Source: Tubulanus polymorphus (Eukaryota; Nemertea; Palaeonemertea; Tubulaniformes; Tubulanidae). Taken from it: a stretch of 64,000 bases of DNA. Positions within the stretch are counted from its first letter, which is position 1, and each line of letters opens with the position of its first letter. The position numbers were made by a program, and so were the translations under genes. Where the stretch lies: contig NC_134035.1 in assembly GCF_964204645.1 (NCBI RefSeq), positions 7,130,501 to 7,194,500 on the forward strand, given 5' to 3'. The notes under the pieces are model-generated. The model was not told the origin of the DNA. It ran no database searches and saw only the letters and a program-made list of their open reading frames with translations. Shown here piece after piece: positions 1 to 58,900 of this stretch.

Positions 1-21932
<21,932 letters not shown>

Positions 21933-22353: not shown

Positions 22354-34315
<11,962 letters not shown>

Positions 34316-39141: not shown

Positions 39142-40924
39142 CGTAAATATTGTATATAAAGTGACGATGATAAGTGGTGTTACGCTGTGCTGCTGCTTGT
39201 ATTGTGCGTTTGTATGGGAAACTTCTATTTTATAGACAGTTCAATGGTTCGATGAAAGTAATTTCTAACGCTTAAGTGTTTTTGTTTTCTAGGGCCTTCT
39301 CAATTATCAGGCATCATCCCAGTTTCTCAAAAGCCATAAACCCTTAAACCGTGGTGGAAAATGAGGATTAGACCTTAAAAAATACACTGGTCAAATTATG
39401 AAAGTATCACGGGGAGTAGTGTATTTTCAGAGTTGGTTGACTTAAAGTTAACTTCAGAAATGAATTCCATTTATGACTCGGCTCAAGTTGAGTTCGGTGT
39501 ATGGTACATGGTTAAAAAAGTAATTCAGAAAAATATCTGAGTTGGTCAGATCCGACTTGGGTGGATTCTACTGTTTTGAAAACTTTGCCCTGGTTATCAA
39601 TGGACTGATGTTTCTGTTAATGTATGCATGTTTATTTTAGACTGGTTCCTTTATGTACGTGATACCTCTCTATGTTTTCATAGGAGTTTTTGTGATTCGA
39701 TTTACATTAGTTCGATTAAACCAGATTAGACAAATACGCAAGTGAATATTACAGTTATTGTAATGACACGCTCTATGCCGTCGGCCGGCACAAGCCGTTG
39801 AACACCGATCGGCGCTGAACAATCTACTCACTTCCGCCGATAGATCACTCATGCGGACCGTTTAACGATTTACATAATTGAACATAGCGAACGAACTAAA
39901 CTGTCTGTGAATCGAATCGCTTCTGGGGTATGAAAGGAACGAGTCTAAGATGGTGCTTTCTGTTGTTCTTATCGAATCCTATACTATAGCGCCGCCGTAT
40001 TTTGTGAATAATGTAAAATAAACATGTATTGGCCTAGTTTTTCAATTACCTATTCAAGCGTTTTATGAGTTGTGAGATTTTTAAGGATAGTATCACCAGG
40101 ATTTAAATGTTCATTACAGTCGAAGCTGTCGTCCCGCCTTGGAATTGAATCCAGCATTGAATCTGTTTCATAATGGCAACATTCCGTATTACTAGATCAT
40201 TAGGCACTTTCCCTATGTTCATACTAGCGCTGTCATTTCTGGGGATAGAAAGGGCTACGAGAAATCATCTCAACCTTTGGGAATTTCTTTTACAACGACG
40301 AAGCGAGCACCGAAGGGGGAGTTCTGGGGTCTCCAATTTATATGTTTTTGACCGCTGTGCACTCAATCGGGACAGTTCCTCACTAGCTTTACTGCGGCAA
40401 TATCATTTATTAACTTCGCGCCATATCCTATCAGATAGTTGTACGCCTTGAAATCAGCTGACACATGTATACGAAGTGTGGCTATATGTATACGTTCTGC
40501 TGCTTCGCGTAAATCCCGCGCTGTGGTGAAACCGCGTGGAGTGGGGCCAATATGGTACAAAAGGGGTACGATACGGTCGGTACTAATGGGGCTTCAGCCG
40601 AGCGGATAGAAAACCGCAAATAAAAGAATTTGATTCGATATATGAATATCGCCGACTTTTTTATTGGTTTACTGATTGCGTGGCATTTGTCTCGTTAAGT
40701 ATTGGGTCTAGTTGCTGATTTCTCCGAAGATACACTCGCAATACAATAAACCAGTGTAACCTGAGGGAGGTCTCGCTCTTCCAATATAATCGCCATGGTA
40801 GTCAACAAGGACTGACTTCGCGGCATCCTCCAAAGCCAAAAATGACATACAAAACGTAATTACTTGTTATTAAACCCACAATTCTATATCACTTTAAATC
40901 TAAAAATAAATCTGACCTTGCACT

Positions 40925-43900
40925 TCAAAGAATGTTACATGTTTTTGACTTTTTCGGTGGGTCGTTTTGTTTGGGTGGAGCTGGTTGTTTCACATTATTT
41001 TGCTGCGCATTGTTACTAGACACATTGTTGAACTGTGGAGTTTCCAGAAGTTTATCATTGTCCATATCATGGCTTTCCTCTGGCTTTTCCTTGACAGGAC
41101 CTTTGGTGGATGGATTTGTAGCTTCGGGTTCTGTTACTGCCATTGCTTCGCGTGGTTTAGACACGATTGGAGATTCCTTGGATTCCTCTGTAACGCTGGG
41201 CTCCGGATTGTCCGTTGATTCCTCGAGAGGGGCCTTGGAATCTTGGGCATCATTTTTGGCATCCGTTTTCTCGTCAACCGCTGCGCTCGAATCCTGGGGA
41301 TCGTCCGCATATATTCTCAATTTTTCGAACAGTTGATCGAATGAATTTCCTGTCCAAGTTTCTTGAACATTTTCTTCGTGAGCAAAATCTATATAAAGCA
41401 ACTCTGTGAATACCATGCTCATAGGACCGCCCGGTGGCCATCTTGTATCTTCTAACAATAAGGGAATAATCGGCTTCTTCAAGGCGTCGCACAGTGAAAC
41501 CTCTTTACGACAATTTGCTGATTTGGAATATGTTTCAGTGACACACGATACAACTACTCGACAGTTTCTAATTCCGCGGTCGATTTTATCGTACAGTGAG
41601 TCGCCGCCTCCCATCTGATAGATATCCATCCAGCAATGAAATCCTAGTTCAGTCAATCGGCGATACAGCCGTTTAATCTGAGGCTGTTTACCCCACTGGT
41701 AAGATATGAACACTTGCGCTGCTTCGGGCGGACTCTCCGCTGGAGATGTTATCTGTAATATAGAACCATTCAAAAAGTCGTGAAGGATGACGCACCATAG
41801 GTTTCGATGAGAATTTACGACATATTCGAAATCAGATTCTAAATTTCATGTGTTAACCTGATATGTATACCTGATTCGATTTCGTCTTCTGATCTTCTCG
41901 AATGGGAAGAATTATCTCCTCCGGCTCGGGTTCCCACCAATTTCTGTACTCTATTCGATAGAAATGCGAATCAACATGATACACGGGGTGGATGGAGTCA
42001 ATAGTTTTTTTTTAGTGTTTAAGCGCGGTACCTACCAGGATCGACAATTTCTTCTTCGGGCATTATCTTATTGAAACTGAGCTGCATGAGTAGTTCACTG
42101 AATTTCTCATCGTGCCAATTCCTTTCCCCTCTCCCCAGCGATCCCTTCCTCAGGTGCATGCTGATATACAGATATTCGCCGAATATGGGCCCCATTGATC
42201 CAGCTGGTGGCCACTGCACTCGCTCTAGTAGAATCGGGATGATGGGCTTGCCCAGATTGACAGCCAGGTTCACCTGAAAGACACAATTGTCCCCAGACAC
42301 AGTGAGATCTCGAGTCTATGTACGTGCATTCTAGTAGGAGAATTTCACCCTATATACCAAAAGCCCGGGATTGGCATTTAATTCAAACTTGCAGAATAAT
42401 ATTCGATTCAATTCAATATTTCATATCTTAGATATTACGTTGTAAATCATATGATACACATGATATTTGAATTCGTAAATGAAGCACATTCGACGGTTGT
42501 TACCTCTCTGATACAATTTGGAGATTTCGCGTATTTCTCTGTAACGCAACAAACGACGACTTTAGCTGCCCGAATTCCTTCGTCTATTTTGGCGTAGAGT
42601 TTATCGCCCCCTCCCATCTGACCGATGTCCATCCAACACTGAAATCCGGCCATTAGCAAATGCTTGCGAAGTAGCTTCACCTCTGGTTGATGGCTCCACT
42701 GGTAACTGAGGAAGACGGGTGGAGGCGAGGCATACTCTGGAGCCTCTTCGGTCACGACGTCCTCTGTATTGTCAAATATGTTATCTTAACTGCATGTTGT
42801 TTAAGGCTGTATGAAGCACCGTTATAATATTCAATATACAATTTTTATTGGTACCGGTACAGGCTTTGAGGTTTAATTTCTAGAGTATCGTGGTGGATTG
42901 TATTGTTTTTATGAACCAATCTCTCAATATCGCTACGGAGCGGTTGTAACTTTTCGTCCAGCATTCGAGAAATCAATACAGAATACAAATGCGCTATCGG
43001 GTTTCTATCCGTTTCTAGTTGCCCATCGTGTATAAGGACAACCACGAGTTTGGAAACAGATAATGTAGATCTTTGCTTATCTCGAGAACTAGATTGGGTA
43101 CAGTGTAACGTTTAAAGATGTGAGACCATTGCAAATACATGCTGCCGATTTTAATGTGTTTTGAATGTGTATGCTCCGAGTTAGGACAATTTAGTAGACT
43201 TACCAACATTTTTAAGAGCTTCCTCGATAACTATTGCAGCGTCCAATCTGTCGATTTCAACCAATATCTCCAAAACTGCATGGCTGGCTTCGCTGGTTTT
43301 ATGCGTGGCAAACCATTCGCTAAGCAGTGACATACAGGGATCGTTTTGAGTCGCCCAGCCACGAATATCAGTCGGGTTATACCCGAGACGCTGGGCTAAC
43401 AGGCGCCAGTCGTGTTCGGCTTCGGGGTTCAACAATGTTGAAACTTGTTTCGACCAAGCGGGTGCATTACTCACAGTCTACAAGAATTCACCATCAGAAA
43501 TGGATATGGATCAAATATTGCTTTATTTTGTGTTAATTTTCTCGAATATAATGTTATCCTCGACATCAAATGAAGCATTCTCTCCCTGCAGGGATCCGAA
43601 CCTGATGACATCGAGACTCGCCCTGCCACACTAGCCCGAGTGCGCCGCTTACATGCGAAGCTTAGATGGTGTCATTATTAGCCAATCAGATATGCCGTTT
43701 TATTCTAGTACGGGTTTTTCAATTTATAGTTTTTACGTAAAATTTGTCTCAGCGATTATACAATGGGCAATCTGATTAGTGCCGCAAGTTTTCCTTCAGC
43801 AAACCTGCGCACCCGGTCTAGTGTGGTAGGGTTTCATGCTGTTGCTGAATATAGCAATGCCAACAGGTTCGAATACCTGCCAGGGAGTATGTTAATGGCT

Positions 43901-46900
43901 CCTGTTCTTTCCGGCAACGCAGATACTTGTAAAAGAAAACATTTCAACCATATATGTCTTGCACACAAAGAAAGGTAATCCTGATAGTGAAACAGGAACC
44001 GTAAGGACAGTTACTCAAAACCTAGTATACAATCTACATACCTTCATATCTATTTCTTCTACCTTTTCATCTAATTCGTCAACTTTATCGTCAAGATTAT
44101 CCAGACGTTCGTCTGCGACGATCGCGGCTACAGCCAGTTTATCAACTTCTTCTTTGGTCTTATCAACATCTTCGGTCAGTTGATCAACATTATTTTCAGC
44201 CGTGGTAACTCTTGTGTCTAAATCATCGATATCTTCTTGATGTTTTTCAACAGTTTTTACGATATTACCTAAGCTGTAGTCGTATTGATTCATTAAATTA
44301 AGCTTGTTACAATAATCCCGTTGGCGCTTAGTTATTGTATATGCATTTTAAGTTGTAAGGTATGACGAAAACCAGTTTTAAAACCCTTACACAACTGGCT
44401 AATGGTGGGAATATTTACCTTCGTCCTTCGATTATGTTGATTATATGTTCAACCGCTTGAGCAAGTCCTCCGTGCTTTTTTGCAAGCGCTTCGAACAGGT
44501 TCCGTTCCCTGGTCAGCAATGCCTTATATTCAACTCCGAACTGACCGACTGCACCAATTCCTGTTACACAGGTTTGAGCATCATCTGTATTCTTTTTCAC
44601 CCAGTCTATCAAAGCGTTGAATACCTTTTCTGCTACAGGAGAGGGTCTCTGATAAAAACAATTTAAGTTAAGTGAAGTATCATACATGTCGTGGTCAAGA
44701 AACTAGCTAAATATAGTGTTTCATACATTCTTTGTAAACGGGGCATATTAAACTCCTCGCAAAACCAACTCCGACTGTCTTTTCCAACGTCCCCTTAGAC
44801 TACACCGCATATAAGACTGTTACACTGTGATCAGACCAAATAGCCAATTACCCCTCGGATAGGAGGAGCATAGAAGCCATGACATAAAATGTCAGAAAGT
44901 TTAGAGCACTCCAAACATTCGCCTAATCCATATCTTTCAATTTAGAGCCGTTGCGATGAGTTAATACTTGTAGATATCTTTTAATTAAACTTAGCAAACC
45001 TTTTTCGAATTTTTAACTATGCTAGCAAGCATGTAAGGCAACATGGCAGATTTCACTTGACTCGCTCCGATCTCTTTTGTTATGATATCCACAGCACTCG
45101 GTGATATCGGCGACGGGTCCTTCTGCGCAAGCGTGTTCAACACCATAATCGCCGATCCGAACCTCGATGGGTCGTTGAAGTCGTGTTTCATTATTTGGTC
45201 GATCATTTCTTCTTTTATTATCTGCAGTAGGAGAATTCATAGGCGAGTGTTATCTCAAAAATTTGTGATAAAAAGATTATCCCATAGGTTTCACAATTGC
45301 TGGAATACATAACCGCCTCCCAATATAAGGCAAACGTAATGGTATGATTTTCAAAATGGACGCTATCATGGCTGCCTACTACCCGATGGTTTGGGCTCAT
45401 GAAGCGGTTCATCTATAAAGTTCCTTGAGATATTATCCAAACGAACTGAGAAAATGATTTAGAAAAGTTAAGCAGAGAGATGATTTAGAAAAGGCAAACC
45501 ACGTGGACTTCGTTCAACAGAAGGTGGCTCTATGTTTGTCTTTGGAGGTAATTTTGAGAGTTGGAAATACTGGTATTTAGATAGAACTTGAAACATACTG
45601 ACGGATTCTCACTCGCTATGGCGTTCAGTAAAATAGCCCAGTATTGTCTGCAGTCTCCTTTCGCAACCGCTTGAAGCTCGTCTAACTTAGCTTCGACAGG
45701 CTTCGGACATTCGGGATACACGGCAGCGATTACACCTAAAATCACGATTCGTTTGAATAAATATTTCGAGTGTTTCAATATCATTCGATTATTACATTAT
45801 ATGTCTCATGTATTTTACCGAATAGATCAGTTTTTTCGTCCACAATTACTAATCCTATGATTTCATTCAATATTTTCGCTAATATCACTGGTTGAGTTCG
45901 TGATATTAGTTCTAAAACTGTTTTCATACAGTTCGACAGATCTTCGTCCTCGTCGTTTAGTAGTTTAACTATGTGTCCGAAAAGTGGTTCGAGTACTTGC
46001 AGTGTACAGCTCTGAGCGTGCTACAATATACAAAACAATAAGCCTTTCGAATTGAATCCTGTCCCATTTCGAACACTAGGCTCTGCTCTGTTGATGTTAC
46101 GTCAACTAGTCCTACAGAGCCGAGCGATCATTTTCCAACAAAAATTAAGGGTCTTTTTAAATCTAAGATGATCGTTCTTATTAATTTCACGATAACTTCT
46201 ATGAATTCATGAAATAGAGGACATCCACAACGTTCATCATTTTTACAATTGGTGTAAGGGGTACCTTAGAAGTATAAACAGGTAAGCATTGTAATGTCAA
46301 TAGGCCATACGTATTTTTGTTGCCGCTTGAATAGTCCATATAGTCACGCGTTAGACATTGCTCGTAGATATAAGTGAAAGACTCACTATAGGCCATCAGC
46401 TCAGTACCATCTCTATAATTGATGATAAAGATAACAACTGTACAAAAGACGTTCTTATTTTAACAATGATAATATGGAATTAATACCACTTTCACAGTTG
46501 TGAGTTAGGATTTGTAAACTTTGTAAATGTTGGGGAATATGAACCTCTCCTCTGCAACCATGGATAGGTCTAGGTTTTATACGATGATTTTTCTTAAATG
46601 AAACTCACTCGCAGACCTTGAACACAGCGTCGAGCAGGTGACTAACCACTTTATGGCACCAACCAATCTCAAAATCAAAATCCTCCTTTATCAAACGCGC
46701 TAATGTTGTAACCACATCCTTTATGAAGTGTTTATGTTTCTGTAAGATATTCATCGTCAGTTTCATCTTTCATTCTTTTAGAAATTAACAGAGTATTTTA
46801 TGTAGTGCAGTTACCTTTAAATCGACGAATTCGCACGTTTCTCTCGCGATGTTGATCAAATACGGCGAACCGGACTTAAGAGATTCTAACGAAAATCTAA

Positions 46901-49900
46901 ATATTTCTTCTTGATAATGATTTACAACGCGTGAACTCCTGTCAATTATAAAACAATTCAATGATTACCAATGAAATCTAAGAGAATTTATATATTGGTA
47001 TATTATCTGAAATGAATATATTCTGAAATAAAGTTTTAGATAATCGGAAGCCTGCTCGATAGTGCAAGTTATGACTCGAAGTTTTGCCTAAGCACTGTGA
47101 CGTGGCATAATTTAATTAGATTTCTTACTCTCGTAATGGGGAATTAATTTGTCATTCGTCTCGTTCGCGAATTATTGAGTCATAGCGTATAACATTTGAA
47201 TAGGTATTCATTTCCCGTTCATGGTTGCACACATAGACATTGTTTTGGCAGATTGAACTTTGTAAATATGGTCTATAGCTTACTGTAATGATTCAAGGAA
47301 ATCTTCGATGAAATCAGCTATAGAGCTCGCTGTCCAAAAGTCCTCGTGCTCCAGTTCGTCTGGAGTAAGGTTCTTGTAGGCCGACGTCGCCAAGGCTATC
47401 ATTCCGTCAAACACAGGCCTTGCGCCTTCCACATCATCCTGGAGCATTAATAGATGAAATAGACTTTAGTCGAAACAAGGTTTCTTAAACATTACGGGGA
47501 AATATGGTGCCAAATTCTGCCGCTGGGATTTGGGTGGAGTGAACGAGATCCTACCTTCCAGCGCATCATGTCTTTGTAATGTTCGATCATTCTATCGCAG
47601 GCCGACGCTATTTCTTTCTTCGGTTTAGTTACCAACATTCCCATATACGAGGCCCACAATCTTTGTACCTTTTTGTTCCTAATTGATAATCGCAGTAGGT
47701 AAGTACAAAACTCAAACCCGAAGAGAGTCACGAGTAAAAAACGAGTATTCAAAGTTTTGTAAAAACATACAGGAGGGAATTGATTTCAAAGATATTGTGA
47801 TTGTTTTAGGAATTTCTTTCAAAATTCAAAACTGGCAAATGTTTGTTTCTTTTGTTTCGCTTCAAATCTAGGCTTGGTGCATACAGCAAAAAATTGAACA
47901 CAAACAGAACAGCGCTTCTGGCGTGTTTCGTGGCTGTGAACACGGTCTTCGCGACACCCTTTTTTCAAAAGTTGGTTTCACGAAATCCGAAAAACTTATT
48001 TCGATTGGTGTCTGCTTTCTCTAAAAACAAGGAACATTCTTCAGCTTAAGCCTGGCGCACACAACAGAAAAACCTCGAAACAAGTCGGATATAGTATGAT
48101 CCTTTCTTATTCTCTGTTAAGCGGTGATGTCGGTTTGTTTGCCGTATAGGATAGCGGTCGAACAAAACATTGGAACGCATGAACACAAAATCCGTTCTCT
48201 TGTTTCGTGTGTTTCTTGTTGTACGCGTGCTAACTTTTGCTGTCTTCACTCTCCGAATGGAGCAGACTTGTTTCTACAACATAAGTTTCCTTCATTCCGT
48301 GTTTCGTGTTTAACTTACTGCTCTTTGTTGCCGTGGCTCACTTTACAAGCCGCATCCAGAAAATCTGTGTATCGCGCGATTACCTTCGCCAACAATCTAT
48401 AGTTTTTCAACGAATGTCCTAAATCTGTCATTTTCTGGATGTATTCTTCAAACAATTGTTCGTTATCCTTCAATACGAAGACTATTATATGAGCGTTTGG
48501 CGGGTTTTTACAGTATGCTTATGACATGTAATATGGTCATCCCTTCCGTAAAGGATATAAATAATAACGAGAGGATCGAAATTCACAGCATTCATATCAA
48601 ACAGATCAGAACATTCTGCCTTAATATCATATAAAATGACCAGGAAACTCCTCCAGAATGCTGAATCTGTTTCCCAAATGTTATAGATTTGATTGAGGCG
48701 GGTACCTGAGATAGGCCTACCTGAATATATGGACGAAGCTCATCGCTGTCAAGACGTCGATAGAAAGTAGTCACGCTATCCAGGAGATCTTTTGCCAATT
48801 TAGTTGGTTCGTGGTCTACGGCCACCTCTAAAAGCCGAAACACCGTCGCAATCTGCTTCAAACATATTTCTTTGCTGGATCTAGAAATACATGTCATATT
48901 GTAAGTTCTCCATTCGTAGAACATAATATGATACATTTAGGTATACTTTGCGACAACATCAATTACAATTGCGTTTATTTCAATCTTCAACGTATTTCTA
49001 CCGCTGACAAATGAAAATGAATATATTCCTTTATGGAAAGAAACGTATATACAAGATTTTCTATCACGTTTAGACTGGTATTAATTCACCTTATATTCAA
49101 GATTCTATAATTTATCACCAAGCAGTAAAACTTACAGTGCAGATTTTATATAAGACTTTATTTGATCGATCACATTTTCGACTTTGTCTTCATCTTCAAT
49201 AAACTTTTCATCTTGGATTATTTTGATGATTCCTTCAATGTTGAATGGGTCTCCCGGTTGCTGTCACAAAAGAAATGTTTCATATTCAAATTTCTCGGTA
49301 ATGATAAACGAAAACATTCTCGAAAAGTTCTCCCACTCATAATGTTCATTGCATATCTTATCTTACCTTAAGTATTTCAGCTTGAATCTCATCTTCCAAT
49401 TCACGATCCAACAAACGGCAGACGTCCTGATAAACACTGGCCATATCAGATGAAAGATTTGAATCGTTGGACTTGCGTTGGTAATACACGTACAGCTCCG
49501 TAGTCTCAGTAAGTACATTCCTATACTGGGTTTCACTGCGAATATGAATATTCATGAAATTAATGTTTGAAAATGATAATATTGTTTCGATGAACTGACA
49601 ACCGTAGAAATAGGTCTAGGTTTTTTCTCACGTACATATCTTAGGAATTTAAGAAAGCAAGCGATGCGCTTTGTATCTTACTGAGACCAGACTAGTCATA
49701 ATAGATTAATCGCATTGAAGACGACACTGTCGATATACGTAGGCCTTTATCAAGCCTTTGTTTATTTCACAGCGTTTTGAAATGAGTTTTGTCCCAATGA
49801 ACTATTATAGATATACCTGATATAATCGAATATATAATTCCTCAGCAAATCGCTGACCCATGAACTGTAGAAATCATCCGTGGTTTCCACGTGTTTCTCG

Positions 49901-51072
49901 GGTATGAATTCACGCATTAAGATCCTCAGTAATTTCTTAAGCTGTTCAGAATCTAATTTGTCCTGCAGAAAACGTGGATATGATTCTATGCCACGGTAAA
50001 GCAATGGTAAAAAAAGCAAGTGACGTCTGATTTTGGTTTTATGAAAACTTAGGCTCGAAATTCAACATTAAATCAATTAGCAGCTGGACTGTAAATCAAA
50101 TAAACGTTTAAAAGTATTCTTCGCACACAATCGTGGGAAAAAGCTGCATGAAAACGCATGAATAATGAGGGTTGTTTTTCTTCAAATTGTGGGTGTGTGC
50201 TTCTTCTTCATATTCAATGCCTTTGTTAACTTTAGTCATGAAAATGGTATCAAGATGGTTTACGATAGATCCAGAAATTGTACATACTTAAAAATTTTGA
50301 TTTTGGAAATTGTGGATTGTTTGTTCTTTATCGCTGTTAGCGGATGATTACATCGCGTTTTCCATCATACCAGTATTTGTAGGAATACAGATTTCTTCTG
50401 GGTTTTTATTAGACCTATCAATATCTATTCACCGTCGCGACATACCTCCATGTATTCTTTCATTTCAAAGCGTCGGAATATCTCGCGTATCAATTCTATA
50501 TGGGTTGAACCCGGTCCAGCAGTAAGCAGGTGCACGACCAAATCATAGATTAATGGGTAGAATTCGTCTGCAACCGAATCCTCAAAATCACTTTCAAATA
50601 GAAAACAATCTTTTATACGCGTTTGATATGCCGCCGATGCACGTCTGTCCTATGTTTTCATTTTTCTTACTTATCTGTAAGTCCATATCGCAGATTACAA
50701 CTTAATGATCGTTAATGTAAAGCACTAGGCCTCTGATAGATCAGAACACTATACATGTTTATATTCTAGAAACAATTCTAAGAATGTTCAGATTATCTTT
50801 AATTATTCATAAGCGATGACGATTATCATCGTTAAATTCAAACCTTACTCATGTTTCGATTTAATCCATTGCAGAGCGGCAATGGCCATCGTCCCTGGTG
50901 GAGTTGAGTAGCGTGGATAACCTGGTGCACACACCGCATCTCGCAGGTATTCTATCTCCCCGATTAGTTGTGCGCTCGAAACTTCTCGATAACCTTCCTC
51001 GTCGTCCCTAAGGAGATCTTCGTCATCCTCGCTCGCATCTTTAAAACGATACCGCGGAAGAAATTTCGCCAT
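40925..51072 (-). CDS. Death domain plus tandem TIR protein with long helical-repeat N-terminus and C-terminal CaaX box
   Basis: Exons in coding order: 50849-51072, 50446-50590, 49817-49962, 49367-49535, 49136-49260, 48721-48880, 48319-48467, 47555-47678, 47284-47438, 46815-46938, 46609-46739, 46265-46412, 45819-46020, 45599-45735, 45000-45221, 44419-44648, 44042-44273, 43204-43477, 42504-42763, 42036-42273, 41871-41950, 40925-41752 (4503 nt, 1500 aa). Residues 1-863 are helical with ARM/HEAT-like spacing; part of it recalls the N-terminal region of Melted/VEPH1, which I hold weakly. Residues 864-941 are a heptad coiled coil, 942-1032 a death domain (EHDWRLLAQRLGYNPTDI), about 1047-1180 TIR1 (VFLSYQWSHQPEV, GFQCWMDIGQMGGGD), and about 1238-1365 TIR2 (VFISYQWGKQPQI, GFHCWMDIYQMGGGD). 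A Pro/Glu/Ser-rich tail follows and ends KKSKTCNIL. The Glu in NCIRE (1119) and NCRKE (1309) aligns with the SARM1 NADase glutamate. It is neither SARM1 (no SAM domains) nor MyD88 (too long, two TIRs). A role in innate immunity or cell death is inferred. Introns hold SINEs and diverged repeats. The acceptor at 48467 is weak. Confidence 0.85.
43580..43655 (-). repeat. tRNA-derived SINE, minus strand, intron 17 of the death/TIR gene
   Basis: On the minus strand a box-A-like GGGCTAGTGTGGCAGG (within 43623-43645) is followed by the box-B GGTTCGGATCCC (43591-43602). No cloverleaf acceptor stem pairs, so it is not a functional tRNA gene. It is the opposite-strand relative of 43800-43895. Confidence 0.7.
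43800..43895 (+). repeat. tRNA-derived SINE, plus strand, intron 17 of the death/TIR gene
   Basis: Box-A-like GGTCTAGTGTGGTAGG (within 43809-43830) and box-B GGTTCGAATACC (43866-43877) are spaced as in a pol III promoter, and CTGCCAGGGAG follows. It shares GCGCAC(T/C)CGG(G/T)CTAGTGTGG with the copy at 43580-43655. Confidence 0.72.
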
Positions 51073-51709
51073 TTTTGTCGTTCACTTACTTATTAGTTCT
51101 TTCATACTGAATACAATTTTCATGCACCGTTCTACCCGGTAGTAATTGTCACTATGCGCATACGTCATTCCGTGCTATGTTTATATTTCAAAACGTTTCA
51201 TTTCGATAACCTGTTTTCCTGTGTTAACGTTCCCCTTATTCAAGCAGTAGGTTGGTGTATTTACTGGCGTAGAACACAAATGTGATCGAATGGCAAACGA
51301 CCGTACGTTTTACTTTTTGTCTGATTAATCCATGAGCTGTAATAGCTAAAGGTTGGCTACGTTCTATGTACTGTAGTAGCTTGGGATACAGCTGATCGTT
51401 TGCCTGGTTGCTATTCGCGACAATCACACGATACCGGTACTTTAATCATCGATGTACGCTTCATTCTGATTCTGATTATTCTTTTGTTCAACGGCATAGT
51501 TTAGCTGCTATTCGAAAAAAATTGTTATATTACCATTGAAGCTGAAACTATAACCAGATGAATGCAGACTTTGCATGAATGAAACTTTTATCAGAAACGG
51601 CGAATCGAATGAACAATCTGTGACGTTTGATGGATGATTCGGGCCATTTGAAAAATCAAGGACTTCCCGGTGACAATAAGCCAGCGGTGTTAGAACTAGC
51701 CACACATTT
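51073..51709. other. Upstream region of the death/TIR gene
   Basis: This holds the presumed promoter and 5' untranslated region of the minus-strand gene starting at 51072. No TATA box, immune-type response element or coding sequence could be supported by eye. Confidence 0.4.
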
Positions 51710-51904: not shown

Positions 51905-53060
51905 TCTTAGCATCTTAGCATTTGAGTGTTAGTACGAAGGTCGAAAAGGGAGATGTTGCCGTTAAGTAGGAAGTTTATCTTATTGGTTTCAGTGAGATTT
52001 GAGATGTGATCAGTTATTTTATTGTCGAATGAGGAAAACAGAGCGTCGATTTTTGTTTTGTGACCAGGTGACTGGCATTTAAGCATAAAGTGTTTAGTGT
52101 TAGCTGGTTTGTTACATAAGTTGCATGTAGGATTACGGACATTGATAAAGTTGTGAACATAAAATTGAGATTTTAAAAGGTCGGCGCGTAATCGGTTAAG
52201 TGAAATTTCTTCATCGCAGTTTATGTCCTTAAACAAGTAGGTTGGAACAGCAGTCGAAACTTGATGTTTGATACGAGACTTGAATATGGAAAGCGTAGTC
52301 AGCGAGCGAAGATTATTGTCGGTGTTGTTCCAGGTGTCTATGAGTAAAAAGGATGGGGACGAACGAATTTCCGCACTAGTACCGGCTGGTATGGTGAAGG
52401 GTCGAGGATTTCTGATGAAGCGAGGTCGAGCCGATTTGTATGTATTAAAGATAGTAGAGACGTAAGTGGGAATATTTCCTGATGAGACTCGGTACATATA
52501 TGTTTGAAGTCGTTCTTTCCTACGAGTATCGAGTGTTTTCCAGTTGAGACAAGAAAAGACTTTGCTAGAATTCGAGCCACGGATACACCCGGAAACGCAA
52601 GGAGCTGCTGAGTAGTGGACTCGGTCCAGTTTTGCGAGGGAGGCTTTACTTGCACTGTTGTACAATATGCCTCCATAGTCGATATGAGGGCTAATGAAGG
52701 ACGAGTAAATCTTATTGAGATGACGGGATGTAACAAACCGGGATAAGTGCTTCAGTGGATTTATTTATTTTTGCACCTTATTTGCTAGAGACTCCACATG
52801 ATCATTAAACGAGAGATTCTCGTCAAAGATGAATCCTAAATGTTTGTGAGTTTTTTGCTCGGAACGACTTCGTTTCCCAACTTTTTAGAGCCTTTCTTAC
52901 TAAAAATCATATCGACGCTTTTCGATGGTTTAAAGGATAGGCACCATGTTTGTGACCACTCAAAGATCTTATTTAGGTCCGATTGTAGTATAGAGTAGCG
53001 GGGTTTTCTGGGTCAATTGGGATGTAAAGAGAGGTGTCGTCTGCATAAAGGAAAGTTGGC
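51905..53060 (-). pseudogene. LINE reverse-transcriptase remnant, C-terminal part
   Basis: Reading on the minus strand: FLYADDTSLYIPID with the YADD active site (about 52985-53055), then IFEWSQTWCLSFKPSKS, GFIFDENLSFNDHV, SPHIDYGGILYNSASK, and a C-terminal zinc knuckle CNLCNKPANTKHFMLKC, stop near 51907. At least one in-frame stop (near 52770) and two frame changes break it. The region from 53061 to 53587 holds nothing certain apart from a possible continuation of the same element and the SLC16 gene's 3' untranslated region. Confidence 0.82.
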
Positions 53061-53587: not shown

Positions 53588-55205
53588 TCAATGATTTAAA
53601 GTTTCAATCTGTTGACTGATGAGCGGTTTCGTCACAGGAATTTTTAACTGACCAGGCGATGTAAGATTCATTTTATCATCAGGATCCTCCCCTTCCTCCT
53701 CAAGCTCCGAAACCACTTCACACCGCCTGTGTTCATTGCAGCTCTTCCACCACGTTTTCAACAAAATCATTACGGAACAGATTATAGAAACGGCAGTGAA
53801 ATAAAGCGAATATTTGTAATCACCACTGGTAGAATAAATCCACCCGGCGATCGGTGCTCCGATGATCAGTCCTATACCGCAGGTGAAACTGAGATAGGCG
53901 AATCCAATTTCAAATCGCTCGTAGCCAACAATATCAGTTGTTATTGCCGGCGATAATACTCCATAAGGTACCGACATAAAACTAGTTACACAACCGAATA
54001 TAAGCATTATCCAGAACTTATTCGTTACTGTCATTAGTATTACACATATTGCCATTATCATATAGGATAATAGCATCTGAGAAAATAAGTGTACTTTCTT
54101 TATATGAGCGATTGGACCTTGAATAACACGACCTGCTAGATTAGCAATACCGTATCCCATTAAAAATCGACTTGCTTTTAATTTACTGACGTTCGTTTGG
54201 TGCTGCACCAGAGCCGTCAGATGCACGAACATTACTGATAACGCCATCGCAAAAAGAAACCCGTTGATGAGCAATAGTAAGAAAGGTACAAATTTCAACA
54301 TCGACAACTGTAAGACGTTCTTTTTGGTTTTTGGTTGTTCGTGCTGTTTTAGTTTTGGAACCAGGCGAATCATTACTCCGCATACCGTCAGATTAAGAGA
54401 CATACCAGCTAGTATCAATATGCTACCGCGCCAACCATATGCTACAATAGTTGATTCAATTATTAGTGGCATAACAATCGTTCCTAATCCTATTCCGGAT
54501 ATTGCAAATCCCTGCGCTAATGACTGTTTTTCAGGGAAAAATGTAGGTGCGATGACTAGTAACGGCGTGAATGCAATACCGTAACCAAATCCTGAAAAAT
54601 ATACATAGGTAAAGCAGTGACCGATTCTTGACCGAAATGAACTTCAAAATCCACCACTTACCTGTCATGATACCGAATGTAATTATCAAAACATGGATAT
54701 TGTTTGCAAATACGGCTGACAACATTCCGGCAAACGAAACAATTCCGGCAAATATAAATACCCAGCTATATCCAATGTAACTGACTAGGACACTAGCCAA
54801 TGGACCTGAAAAATAAACGAGTCAATATACTAGTATTACATCTCGTCTGATTTTCTCATATCCTAACGTATTTTTGTAACTCTCAACTCTAACTACTCTG
54901 AGCTCGGGCCAATTTTGTCATCTTATCGGTCACCTCTTGTCAATATGATTGCTATACTACTACATATTTCATATGTAATATGTTTAGTGTATTTAGTTGA
55001 ATAACATACCGAGCAAAGACGACAGACCGATATTTAACGATGCTACAATACTCGTTAACGAATAACTCTCATCAAACGACTCAATCCATTCGACGTAATA
55101 AATACTCGTAGAGTATGAGATTCCAGTTGTAACGAATCCTGCAATAAACGACGATACAACGACAATCCAGCGTGTTTCTGGCATGGGACAGGTTTTTGTT
55201 TCCAC
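53588..55205 (-). CDS. SLC16-type monocarboxylate transporter (major facilitator family), complete, 3 exons
   Basis: A plasma-membrane MFS transporter expected to carry monocarboxylates or related small solutes. Exons in coding order are 55010-55205, 54662-54805 and 53588-54591 (1344 nt, 447 aa). The start Met gives a short hydrophilic N-terminus (METKTCPMPE) running straight into TM1. About twelve hydrophobic segments can be counted, with the large cytoplasmic loop after TM6 carrying VPKLKQHEQPKTKK. The TM4-5 region GFGYGIAFTPLLVIAPTFF followed by EKQSLAQGFAISGIGLGTIV is the clearest family signature (YF-KRR-LA-G-A-AG type). The family's usual N-terminal DGGWGW motif is replaced by PETRWIVVV, so substrate and proton coupling cannot be assumed. 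The C-terminus is acidic (ELEEEGEDPDD). A minus-strand AATAAA near 53400 could serve as its poly(A) signal. Confidence 0.93.
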
Positions 55206-55944: not shown

Positions 55945-58900
55945 TCATTTTTTCGTTCCTGGCACTCCTGCTCCAGCACTTCCAGATCCTGTAAGAAAAT
56001 ATATTTTTGTAAACCAACATTCGATTATCGTTCAATAATCACATCGATGGATGAAACTACCTTTAGCGCAGATTTTCTGAAGGGCAGCCGAAACCTTAGT
56101 GGCAACTCCTTGCCAGGAGGAAACAAGAATTTTCAAATCGTTGTTGTTATTGGAAATAGCCTGATATTCCGTCTGGCTTCTTTCACTCATCGAGTGACCG
56201 GGAACTCCGACTACGATAGATTCAATTCCTGCAAAATATCAGATCTAAATTAATATAATCATCTGTTTGTATCTAATTTCATCGAATCCTCAGACGGTGA
56301 CGATAAGGGCTCCTTAATGTTGATTTTGTGAAATTTATTCATTTCGATATATTCAATTTTAGATATTTCAGCGATTGACAATGAGAGCGATATTTGGCCA
56401 GGTTTTATAAGGCAAAATCATGTAAAGTATTCGTCAATAATGAGTATCATAAAAAATCCAATCGAAAAAGGGTTCTACCGCGTATATAGCAATTAGAAAA
56501 TTAGCTGGTTACTTCGAACAGGGTCTGTATCATATGGTTTCTGTCCGTGAATGAAGGGTAAATAGAAAGAAACGCATCGAGTGAAGCGACTCGTCGCGTC
56601 GACCCCGATGAGTCGAAGCTGTGTTTACCTGCATCGACGTTCTTCTCGGATTCTTGTTTAACCCAGTAAGCGCTTCTCGAAACACCATCGTACAGCAAGA
56701 CGATCATTTTAGCCGTTGAGTTTCGTCTGGAATGCGCTGCAGAGAAGCTAACGTCTCGAGCATATTTTAGAGCATTACTTGTAGCCGTGCTGCGGCCTAG
56801 GTATTCCTGTAAGGTAGGACGTGAGAAAATATGTAAAGACGAGGAGCTAAATCTACAAGATTGCTGATGAAATACTTACCACAGAGGATTTCGCCACGAG
56901 ATCAGTGACAGCTGCTTTTGAATTTCCTGCTTTCAGAGCAAAGTTTCCGTGTGTCGCACGAGCGTATGACAGCAGCCCAATTTGAGTTTCGTTACCAAAA
57001 TGACCGAAAGCGTTACTCGAAACGTAATCTACAACATGCATCGCATTGGCCCATTCGGCTGTTCTAGTGCTCGCCGATACATCAACGATGAACACGATAT
57101 CAGCCAGGTCACACTCTAAAGTACAAAGATTCGTTTGTTTTAGACATACAAAACTTTAAATGACCAATCATACATACTTTGAATGTCATTTAATCGCAAT
57201 TTGTTATGTAGTTAATGAAAAAACCCACAATATTGATACATGGAATTTGAACAACGAAAAATCTGTTTCATATCAGTGACGTTTCAGATTGATGATGGTT
57301 GGAAGGAATTTGTCTAAAACGTCGATATTGTGGATTTCTATATATTTAACAATACATCAATGTCTGAATATGTAAATGTTTTTCTCTTTTAGTACGAATT
57401 ATGTATAAATGATTAAATTTTGAAATCGGTTGCTTACTTTTCTTTTCTGGTGCTGGTGCAGGTGCTGAAATGAATACAATGAGAATATTTAATGAATCGT
57501 ATACAGAATTATCATCAAGATAAATGAAATGCGGTCCTTGTTTACTAACGTTTTGGGCAGAGGTCATCAAAACCAGAAATGAGCTTTTTAACAGTCTCTT
57601 CAATGAATCCATTGTCCGCAGCGCTGCCAGAGTAAGCATCGGAGCTTGGGTTCGCCGCTAGTTTGAAGTTAGTCTTTTGAATATCGTTCGGTTCCACGAT
57701 ACGTCGTGGATCCTGAAGATTTAAGACAATTCGCTTCACACCATTTTTGTTCAAGCCATTAGCTGCAGCCGTCAGGGCTGTTTGATTACTGGGAAATCCA
57801 TCGAAGAATACTATCATGAATTTTTCGGCATCAGCTCGACCTCCATACGCCTGCGACATGCTCTTCTGGTATGATTTCTTAATCGCCTCACCAGTTATTG
57901 ATCCATGAATAGCAACATCCTTTAGATTGAAAAAAAATCATGATGTTAAGACGTACTTATGTTATCGATAATTATGATAATGTATTGAGGTACTAACTGG
58001 CATTTTGTTTGAAATAATGTCATTAAGAAGTTGCTCCTTATTGTCTGTGCTATTCAGAAGGATCGACTGTTTCCAGTTATTTCCGTAGTAGTCAATACCA
58101 ACGCGAAAATCATCTTTTCCTACGAGAACAAATATATACCTTCGTTTCACTGATATTCAAAATAACTGAAATAAGGTAATATGTCGAGCATTTTGTGCTG
58201 TAAATTGGGAATCTTGGATGTGTAATTTAAACGAAGGATTAGGTTTTGGCTATTACTGGCACAGGTGGTGAAAAATGAAACAGGTCGAGCACAGATTGAA
58301 GGATCATTTCTTACAACAGCTGGTATGAAACTATAGAGACAATGTCTATGATAATTTTACCGGAGCAATTTGCAATGGCGGTGATCATTCCGGGGGTAAT
58401 CTTCGAGGGGGATATTACTTGAGGCATTGTCCTAGAACCTCCAATGAAGTCAGGCGAAATGAAGACGCCATTAGTGTACTTAATATTCTTTCCAAAAAAT
58501 ATATATTTTCCCCTTCGTTAAACATGGATCCATTTGACGTAACATACTAGCACATCTTTAGACCGTTAGAGTCTATCAAACCACTAATAAGGTAATGCTT
58601 TGATGATACGTGTTCATTGCGGATGAATTGAGGAAACTATCGTTTCCGGATGGAGTGTCTTACCTATTGCTGGGATAGCAGAGACGTATCGTAATATGAA
58701 GCTTTTGATGTTCATTTGTCTCAGATCTCTTTGACTCATCGATGCGTCCACAAGAAATATGACGTCACGTTTTCTTGGAACGCAAGCTGGAAATATTTAA
58801 AAAGGCGATTTTTATCGTATATAATTAATAAGTATAATGACAAAGGGAGTAACGTTCGAACTGCACTGGATAATTGGCATGAAGTAGCGTTCGTTGACTT

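Follow-up and report, generated by a model that had tools for sequence, protein, structure and literature searches.

How might an animal protein come to join a long helical N-terminal part to a coiled coil, a Death domain, two TIR domains and a lipid-anchor signal, is such an architecture new, and what could the protein do? These questions are raised by a predicted gene at positions 51072 to 40925, on the minus strand, of a 64,000-nucleotide stretch of the genome of the nemertean Tubulanus polymorphus (assembly GCF_964204645.1, contig NC_134035.1, positions 7,130,501 to 7,194,500), the whole of which is here called the window. Our results suggest that the protein is very probably of the published ecTIR-DC family 6 type, and that its residues 526-881 probably share descent with the N-terminal region of Melted (VEPH1). 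As the best explanation of the whole we propose a SARM1-like, membrane-tethered TIR platform of the family 6 type, to which we give a probability of about 0.5.

A single predicted gene of 22 exons

The exon chain was assembled from the raw sequence, using stop-to-stop frames of the minus strand and candidate splice sites, the sites being chosen by hand. It runs from 51072 to 40925 in 22 predicted exons with canonical splice dinucleotides and closes in phase to give 1518 amino acids and a stop. The single 22-exon predicted gene of about 1500 residues described in a first-pass annotation of this DNA is thus confirmed by this reconstruction. Its features are as follows.

50849..51072, minus strand: exon 1, start codon, from residue 1
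50446..50644, minus strand: exon 2, weak acceptor
49817..49962, minus strand: exon 3, rebuilt chain
49367..49535, minus strand: exon 4, rebuilt chain
49136..49260, minus strand: exon 5, rebuilt chain
48721..48880, minus strand: exon 6, rebuilt chain
48319..48467, minus strand: exon 7, weak acceptor
47555..47678, minus strand: exon 8, rebuilt chain
47284..47438, minus strand: exon 9, rebuilt chain
46815..46938, minus strand: exon 10, rebuilt chain
46609..46739, minus strand: exon 11, opens the Melted-like block, from residue 526 (by intron positions and phases)
46265..46412, minus strand: exon 12, Melted-like; 148 bases, the same length as Melted exon 2
45819..46020, minus strand: exon 13, Melted-like (intron positions and phases)
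45599..45735, minus strand: exon 14, Melted-like (intron positions and phases)
45000..45221, minus strand: exon 15, Melted-like (intron positions and phases)
44419..44648, minus strand: exon 16, Melted-like, ends at residue 881 (intron positions and phases)
44042..44273, minus strand: exon 17, predicted coiled coil, residues 883-959 (heptad scan and weak Pfam matches)
43204..43477, minus strand: exon 18, Death domain, residues 969-1046, at 43450-43217 (PF00531)
42504..42763, minus strand: exon 19, first part of TIR 1, E1137 at exon end (PF13676)
42036..42273, minus strand: exon 20, second part of TIR 1 (Pfam)
41871..41950, minus strand: exon 21, linker, skipping possible
40925..41752, minus strand: exon 22, TIR 2, residues 1257-1374, at 41713-41360, with E1327 (PF13676); low-complexity tail; stop
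40928..40939, minus strand: CaaX motif CNIL with basic KKSK before it (C-terminal sequence)
40660..40665, minus strand: possible polyadenylation signal AATAAA downstream of the stop; weak, as the scanned stretch holds 18 AATAAA/ATTAAA hexamers

An in-frame stop lies immediately 5' of the ATG (frame 50845-51081), and the guanine-plus-cytosine content is 0.44 in exons vs 0.36 in introns. G at -1 is present in 15/21 donors, a purine at +3 in 20/21 and G at +5 in 14/21, vs 20%, 48% and 23% among all 522 GT of that strand stretch, while 20/21 acceptors have a pyrimidine at -3 vs 42% among all AG; these figures depend on the hand choice of sites and are not independent of it. When the genome was searched with residues 1-1395, 22 of the 26 matches at E <= 0.01 fell in the window, one per exon. 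The remaining four lie outside it and all involve TIR sequence, from residue 1062 onwards, so that the N-terminal 1000 or so residues have no further match at this threshold in the 268-Mb genome.

The first-pass annotation considered a break between exons 17 and 18, and the locus could be read as two adjacent genes, a Melted-like helical and coiled-coil gene (exons 1-17) followed by a Death-TIR-TIR gene (exons 18-22). Intron 17, at 564 bases the second longest of 21, contains two AATAAA hexamers, and a second gene of this genome has Death-TIR without this N-terminus. Against this, the exon 17 donor is consensus-like (AAG/GTATGT) and joins in phase, and a published passage describes one unigene of another species, a clam, that unites Armadillo-like motifs, Death and two TIRs (PMC6836662), which supports the exon 17-18 join. 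We regard two genes as very improbable.

Domain architecture

Pfam places the Death domain (PF00531, E 6.1e-10 in the whole protein and 1.4e-11 when searched alone) before two stretches of TIR_2 (PF13676, E 2.7e-47), in agreement with the order read in the first pass. The coiled coil proposed there is also borne out: Pfam matches of coiled-coil type near 884-960 are weak, but in a heptad scan the top window of the whole protein is 883-917, with a score of 7.5 that was reached by 0/2000 region shuffles (maximum 7.0). So is the lipid-anchor signal, since the protein ends in KKSKTCNIL, in which CNIL fits C-a-a-X after a basic KKSK.

The Pfam scan of the whole protein was considered for its best 25 of 39 matches, down to E 0.49; among these there is no match above cut-off in residues 1-880, no SAM domain, no PH domain and no significant ARM match (best ARM_FBXO47, E 0.35). 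A sequence search of solved structures with residues 1-881 found no solved relative, its one match (E 0.14) being attributable to chance. Structure prediction gave a six-helix model of the Death domain at low confidence (predicted local distance difference test, pLDDT, 61). A structure search with this model found no chain at E <= 0.001 (best 0.51), and in the weak ranking that it yields the death-domain chains of Fas, FADD, UNC5b and TNFR1 fill the first nine places.

The end phases of exons 1-10 alternate 2,0, which hinted at internal duplication of two-exon cassettes. We rejected this possibility: among six cassettes from exons 2-13, together with exons 14-15 and Melted exons 2-3, 0/28 pairs were significant at 500 shuffles per pair (lowest p 0.094), and the sequences of exons 1-10 are without detectable repetition.

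A probable member of a named family

The first-pass annotation did not know the architecture from any characterised animal protein. This statement needs correction. In a passage of a clam paper from 2019, a single unigene that combines an Armadillo-like N-terminus, a Death domain and two TIRs is assigned, after Gerdol 2017, to ecTIR-DC family 6 (PMC6836662); the same passage puts the TIRs 'N-terminal', probably a slip. On that description the window protein is a further member of an already named kind and its architecture is not new, and we are confident that the kind is that of family 6, with which it shares a long N-terminus, perhaps Armadillo-like here too, the central Death domain, the two TIRs and an invertebrate host. 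The published passages make no mention of Melted-type introns, a coiled coil or a CaaX motif. They give the domain order and the family name, and we found in them no functional test of family 6, so that the family is known by its order and not by a tested function, and the refuting case named in the first pass, a characterised family of this order, is matched only in half. In the passages concerned, ecTIR-DC proteins are described as apparently absent from vertebrates and widespread in invertebrates, with a hypothesised adaptor or regulator role (PMC6321704), families 6, 11 and 13 as having raised levels in the gills of a mussel (PMC5549309), and Death-TIR and ARM-TIR genes are listed for the oyster (PMC4346834).

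The protein resembles MyD88 in having Death followed by TIR, and differs from it in its 1518 residues, long N-terminus, second TIR and tail with CaaX, MyD88 being short and having a single TIR. It was considered as the MyD88 orthologue of this genome and rejected, as that is a separate gene. A MyD88 TIR query finds C1:9548307 first (E 2.7e-7) and C11:9141565 more weakly, and none of its 6 matches in the genome falls in the window. The gene at C1:9.548-9.550 Mb has a Pfam Death exon about 0.85 kb upstream of the TIR, in a frame that by eye resembles the start of MyD88. SARM1 was rejected likewise, the genome having a separate TIR at C2:22697453 with 62% identity to a SARM1 TIR query.

TIR domains: enzymes or docking sites

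The two TIRs of the window protein are 53% identical. A profile was built from these two together with the TIRs at loci L009 and L010 of this genome, four in all, and it matched 31 distinct PDB sequences at E <= 0.01. Ranks 1-22 (E 4.5e-8 to 7.1e-6) are taken by AbTIR and other bacterial TIRs, SARM1 and the CRISPR-associated TIR Cat1. The first Toll-type chain follows at E 2.3e-5 and TLR15/TLR2 at 0.004, and no MyD88 chain is among the 31. TIR2 alone matched 7 PDB sequences, AbTIR included. When the profile is aligned with SARM1, its conserved E stands opposite the E of KEIVTAL, which we take to be the catalytic residue. A glutamate stands at this position in TIR1 (E1137), TIR2 (E1327) and the L009 TIR, and the L010 TIR has D. 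Together, the matches to chains of the type that hydrolyses nicotinamide adenine dinucleotide (NAD+), here called NADases, and the glutamates at the catalytic position make NAD+ hydrolysis by the window TIRs plausible from sequence.

Two observations were made at L010 (G000 C2:28286000-28295900). The TIR exon at 4519-5079 is clear (E 4.5e-13) and carries an insertion that follows the BB-loop position, and the upstream stretch 1941-2213 is TIR-like by eye, yet has no Pfam match.

The TIRs may instead belong to a non-enzymatic, MyD88-like adaptor, in which the TIR pair would dock on Toll-like receptor (TLR) TIRs at the membrane, the Death domain would recruit a kinase of IRAK/Pelle type, and the CaaX end would do the membrane sorting in the manner of the localisation domain that, in the published passage, lies at the C-terminus of arthropod MyD88 (PMC7075850). 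The combination of Death with TIR suits this role. As far as the passages go, Aplysia has five MyD88-like proteins, of which three have an Armadillo-type fold (with one accession given twice) and one has Roc-COR; the authors thus file proteins with this fold, Death and TIR as MyD88-like (PMC9334734), and the clam authors speculate about the transduction of TLR signals (PMC6836662). On contigs C3, C6, C7, C8 and C10 of the genome (G000), 19/37 TIR_2 matches lie in TLR-looking open frames of 690-884 residues, which probably represent an expansion of single-exon Toll-like receptors. An adaptor fits less well with TIRs that match NADases better than TLRs, with the catalytic-position glutamates retained in both and with a separate MyD88-type gene in the genome, and we hold it to be possible, at clearly less than an even chance.

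The N-terminal region and Melted

A tentative link of the N-terminus to Melted/VEPH1 had been offered in the first pass as a guess. The Melted protein is a membrane-linked adaptor in metabolism with a membrane-binding PH domain at its C-terminus. A VEPH1 query finds the genome's own Melted gene on contig C7 (0.477-0.485 Mb), with a best E of 3.7e-14 and 49% identity at the gene start, and the frames there include C-terminal pieces recognised by eye as Melted-type. Six exons of this gene were assembled from locus L017, where a minisatellite array (L017:4616-6823, with repeats such as ERSLLYHPTQISLSSQK) lies inside the intron between exons 4 and 5.

The end phases of the six Melted exons, 2,0,1,0,0,2, are those of window exons 11-16, 2,0,1,0,0,2; the sixth Melted phase depends on a last boundary corrected by hand, and a six-phase run by itself occurs in about 5% of shuffles. 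The positions of the introns are more telling. In an alignment made with neither the VEPH1 query nor intron information, the five internal introns of exons 11-16 are offset from those of the first Melted exons by 0, 1, 6, -1 and -2 columns, with equal phases. Four of the five therefore agree within 2 columns and all five within 6, and 4/5 within 2 was reached by 0/20000 random placements. Among 17 six-exon blocks aligned alike, exons 11-16 come top, with 3, 4, 4 and 5 of 5 introns at tolerances of 1, 2, 3 and 6; blocks that overlap them (start exons 8-10, 12 and 13) score lower, decreasing in step, and those with start exons 1-7 and 14-17 score 0 or 1. The counts observed for exons 11-16 were reached by 0/200 shuffled blocks. 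In addition, residues 556-783 match the VEPH1 query in pairwise BLAST at E 1e-6 with composition correction off, a score reached by 0/2000 shuffles. From the agreement of intron positions and phases we conclude that residues 526-881 probably share descent with the N-terminal region of Melted.

Comparisons with the genome's own Melted speak against this conclusion. The similarity of residues 526-881 to it is not significant (p 0.07, 2000 shuffles), nor is that of exons 12-13 to Melted exons 2-3 (p 0.23). Its best local match is to exons 5-6 (residues 236-319) and not to exons 11-16, with a score of 63 vs a maximum of 79 in 1000 shuffles. A hidden Markov model comparison of Melted with the N-terminus matched the coiled coil, at a probability of 0.3%. 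When residues 1-960 are aligned in full, 2/5 introns are recovered, and exons 1-10 are without assigned relatives. The N-terminus could accordingly be a generic ARM/HEAT-like solenoid unrelated to Melted, the intron agreement being due to chance or to hand-picked sites: similarity to own Melted is at shuffle level, the phase run has its chance of about 5%, the splice sites of both genes were picked by hand, and the published passage has the fold as Armadillo-like (PMC6836662). Against this, the agreement is confined to exons 11-16, at a level unmatched by the random placements and the shuffled blocks, with near scores only in the blocks that overlap them. We consider an unrelated solenoid rather unlikely.

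The earlier guess is thus supported for residues 526-881 or thereabouts by shared introns, and not by sequence similarity to own Melted. Besides these introns, the two proteins would be alike in having a membrane-binding end, PH in Melted and the CaaX motif in the window protein. They differ in that the window protein has Death-TIR-TIR and no PH domain among the Pfam matches considered. A literature search for VEPH1 combined with a TIR domain found nothing.

The CaaX end and a second Death-TIR gene

A second locus, L018:3850-L009:6295 (G000 C2:30233849-30245294), has Neuralized (E 2.2e-39), Roc (a fragment, E 3e-5, slightly below the curated cut-off), COR (COR-A, E 2.6e-11), Death (E 3.7e-9) and a single TIR (E 1e-23) on one strand, the last two each pieced by eye from two frames. 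Because of their order and common strand we infer that these pieces form one gene, an unusual combination with its CaaX end: the last frame ends in KCAICTIL, and CTIL fits the motif. This gene resembles the window gene in Death-TIR, in the C-x-I-L tail and in the first half of its TIR, which is 66% identical to TIR1 over 56 residues. It differs in having Neuralized and Roc-COR instead of the Melted-like part and one TIR, and its splicing is partly modelled. The window and the loci together have 532 distinct open frames that are 60 or more residues long; CaaX-like ends occur in 4/532 and C-x-I-L ends in 2/532, which are those of these two genes. The same C-terminal motif in two otherwise unlike Death-TIR genes argues that the anchor may be functional.

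Neighbouring features

Other features of the window, all on the minus strand, are listed here.

1475-1996 and 8102-8518, minus strand: coding for part of a NUP210-type nucleoporin, as probable exons (Ig_NUP210_16th, E 3.2e-11; Big_2, E 1.2e-6)
23184-23900, minus strand: reverse-transcriptase-like remnant, with a weak RVT_1 match (E 3.4e-4) below cut-off
51907-52764, minus strand: reverse-transcriptase-like remnant by eye, with no Pfam match
53588-54643, minus strand: major facilitator superfamily transporter exon (E 2.3e-27), upstream of the gene on the same strand
57545-57937, minus strand: VWA domain exon (E 6.5e-8)

A possible mechanism and its significance

The first-pass idea of a membrane-tethered signalling or cell-death platform would fit the predicted domains and the CaaX end, and we consider a membrane-tethered, oligomerising TIR platform likely. 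The CaaX tail, with L as its X, would be geranylgeranylated and serve as a membrane tether. The helical part may act as a brake that keeps the protein inactive or as a sensor that receives an upstream signal, and the coiled coil and Death domain would gather copies of the protein. The clustered TIR pairs could then hydrolyse NAD+, leading to a signal nucleotide or to NAD+ loss. This logic would be that of SARM1, except that the coiled coil and Death domain would do what the SAM domains do there, and that a lipid anchor is present as well. With SARM1 and TIR-1 the window protein shares a helical part, an oligomerisation domain and NADase-type TIRs, and with SARM1 the glutamate at the catalytic position, here in both TIRs. 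It differs from both in its Death domain and coiled coil, its two TIRs and its lipid-anchor motif, and from SARM1 in having no SAM domain among the Pfam matches considered.

Whether the TIRs are enzymes or docking sites is the least certain step, and we see the NADase step as evenly balanced. Several points count against the explanation as a whole. The AA loop differs from that of SARM1, with SYQW for SYRR, and a glutamate at the same position is also present in the TIRs of TLRs, which are not known to be NADases. When TIR2 was predicted without an alignment, the resulting model was helical and meaningless (pLDDT 46); it was set aside and lends the active site no support from structure. Prenylation is a prediction from the motif. 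In the gene model, exons 2 and 7 have acceptors that match the consensus poorly, and an alternative acceptor 13 bases inside exon 22 allows exon 21 (80 bases) to be left out with the phase kept.

More doubtfully, we speculate that invertebrates may carry an NADase of SARM1 type for cell death or immunity, of which this protein would be a case, built on a copied Melted N-terminal domain, with a prenyl anchor for the PH domain and a tandem for a single TIR, and that the Death-TIR-CaaX cassette may be mobile, having also been joined to Neuralized-Roc-COR. In the published passages ecTIR-DC family 6 is expressed in the gills of mussel and clam, including a gill that houses symbionts, and its role, as adaptor or regulator of immune signalling, is a guess. 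Should the TIRs prove to be NADases and the tail to be prenylated, a counterpart of SARM1 that is bound to membranes would be part of invertebrate immunity, and Melted would be a relative of a SARM1-like immune protein.

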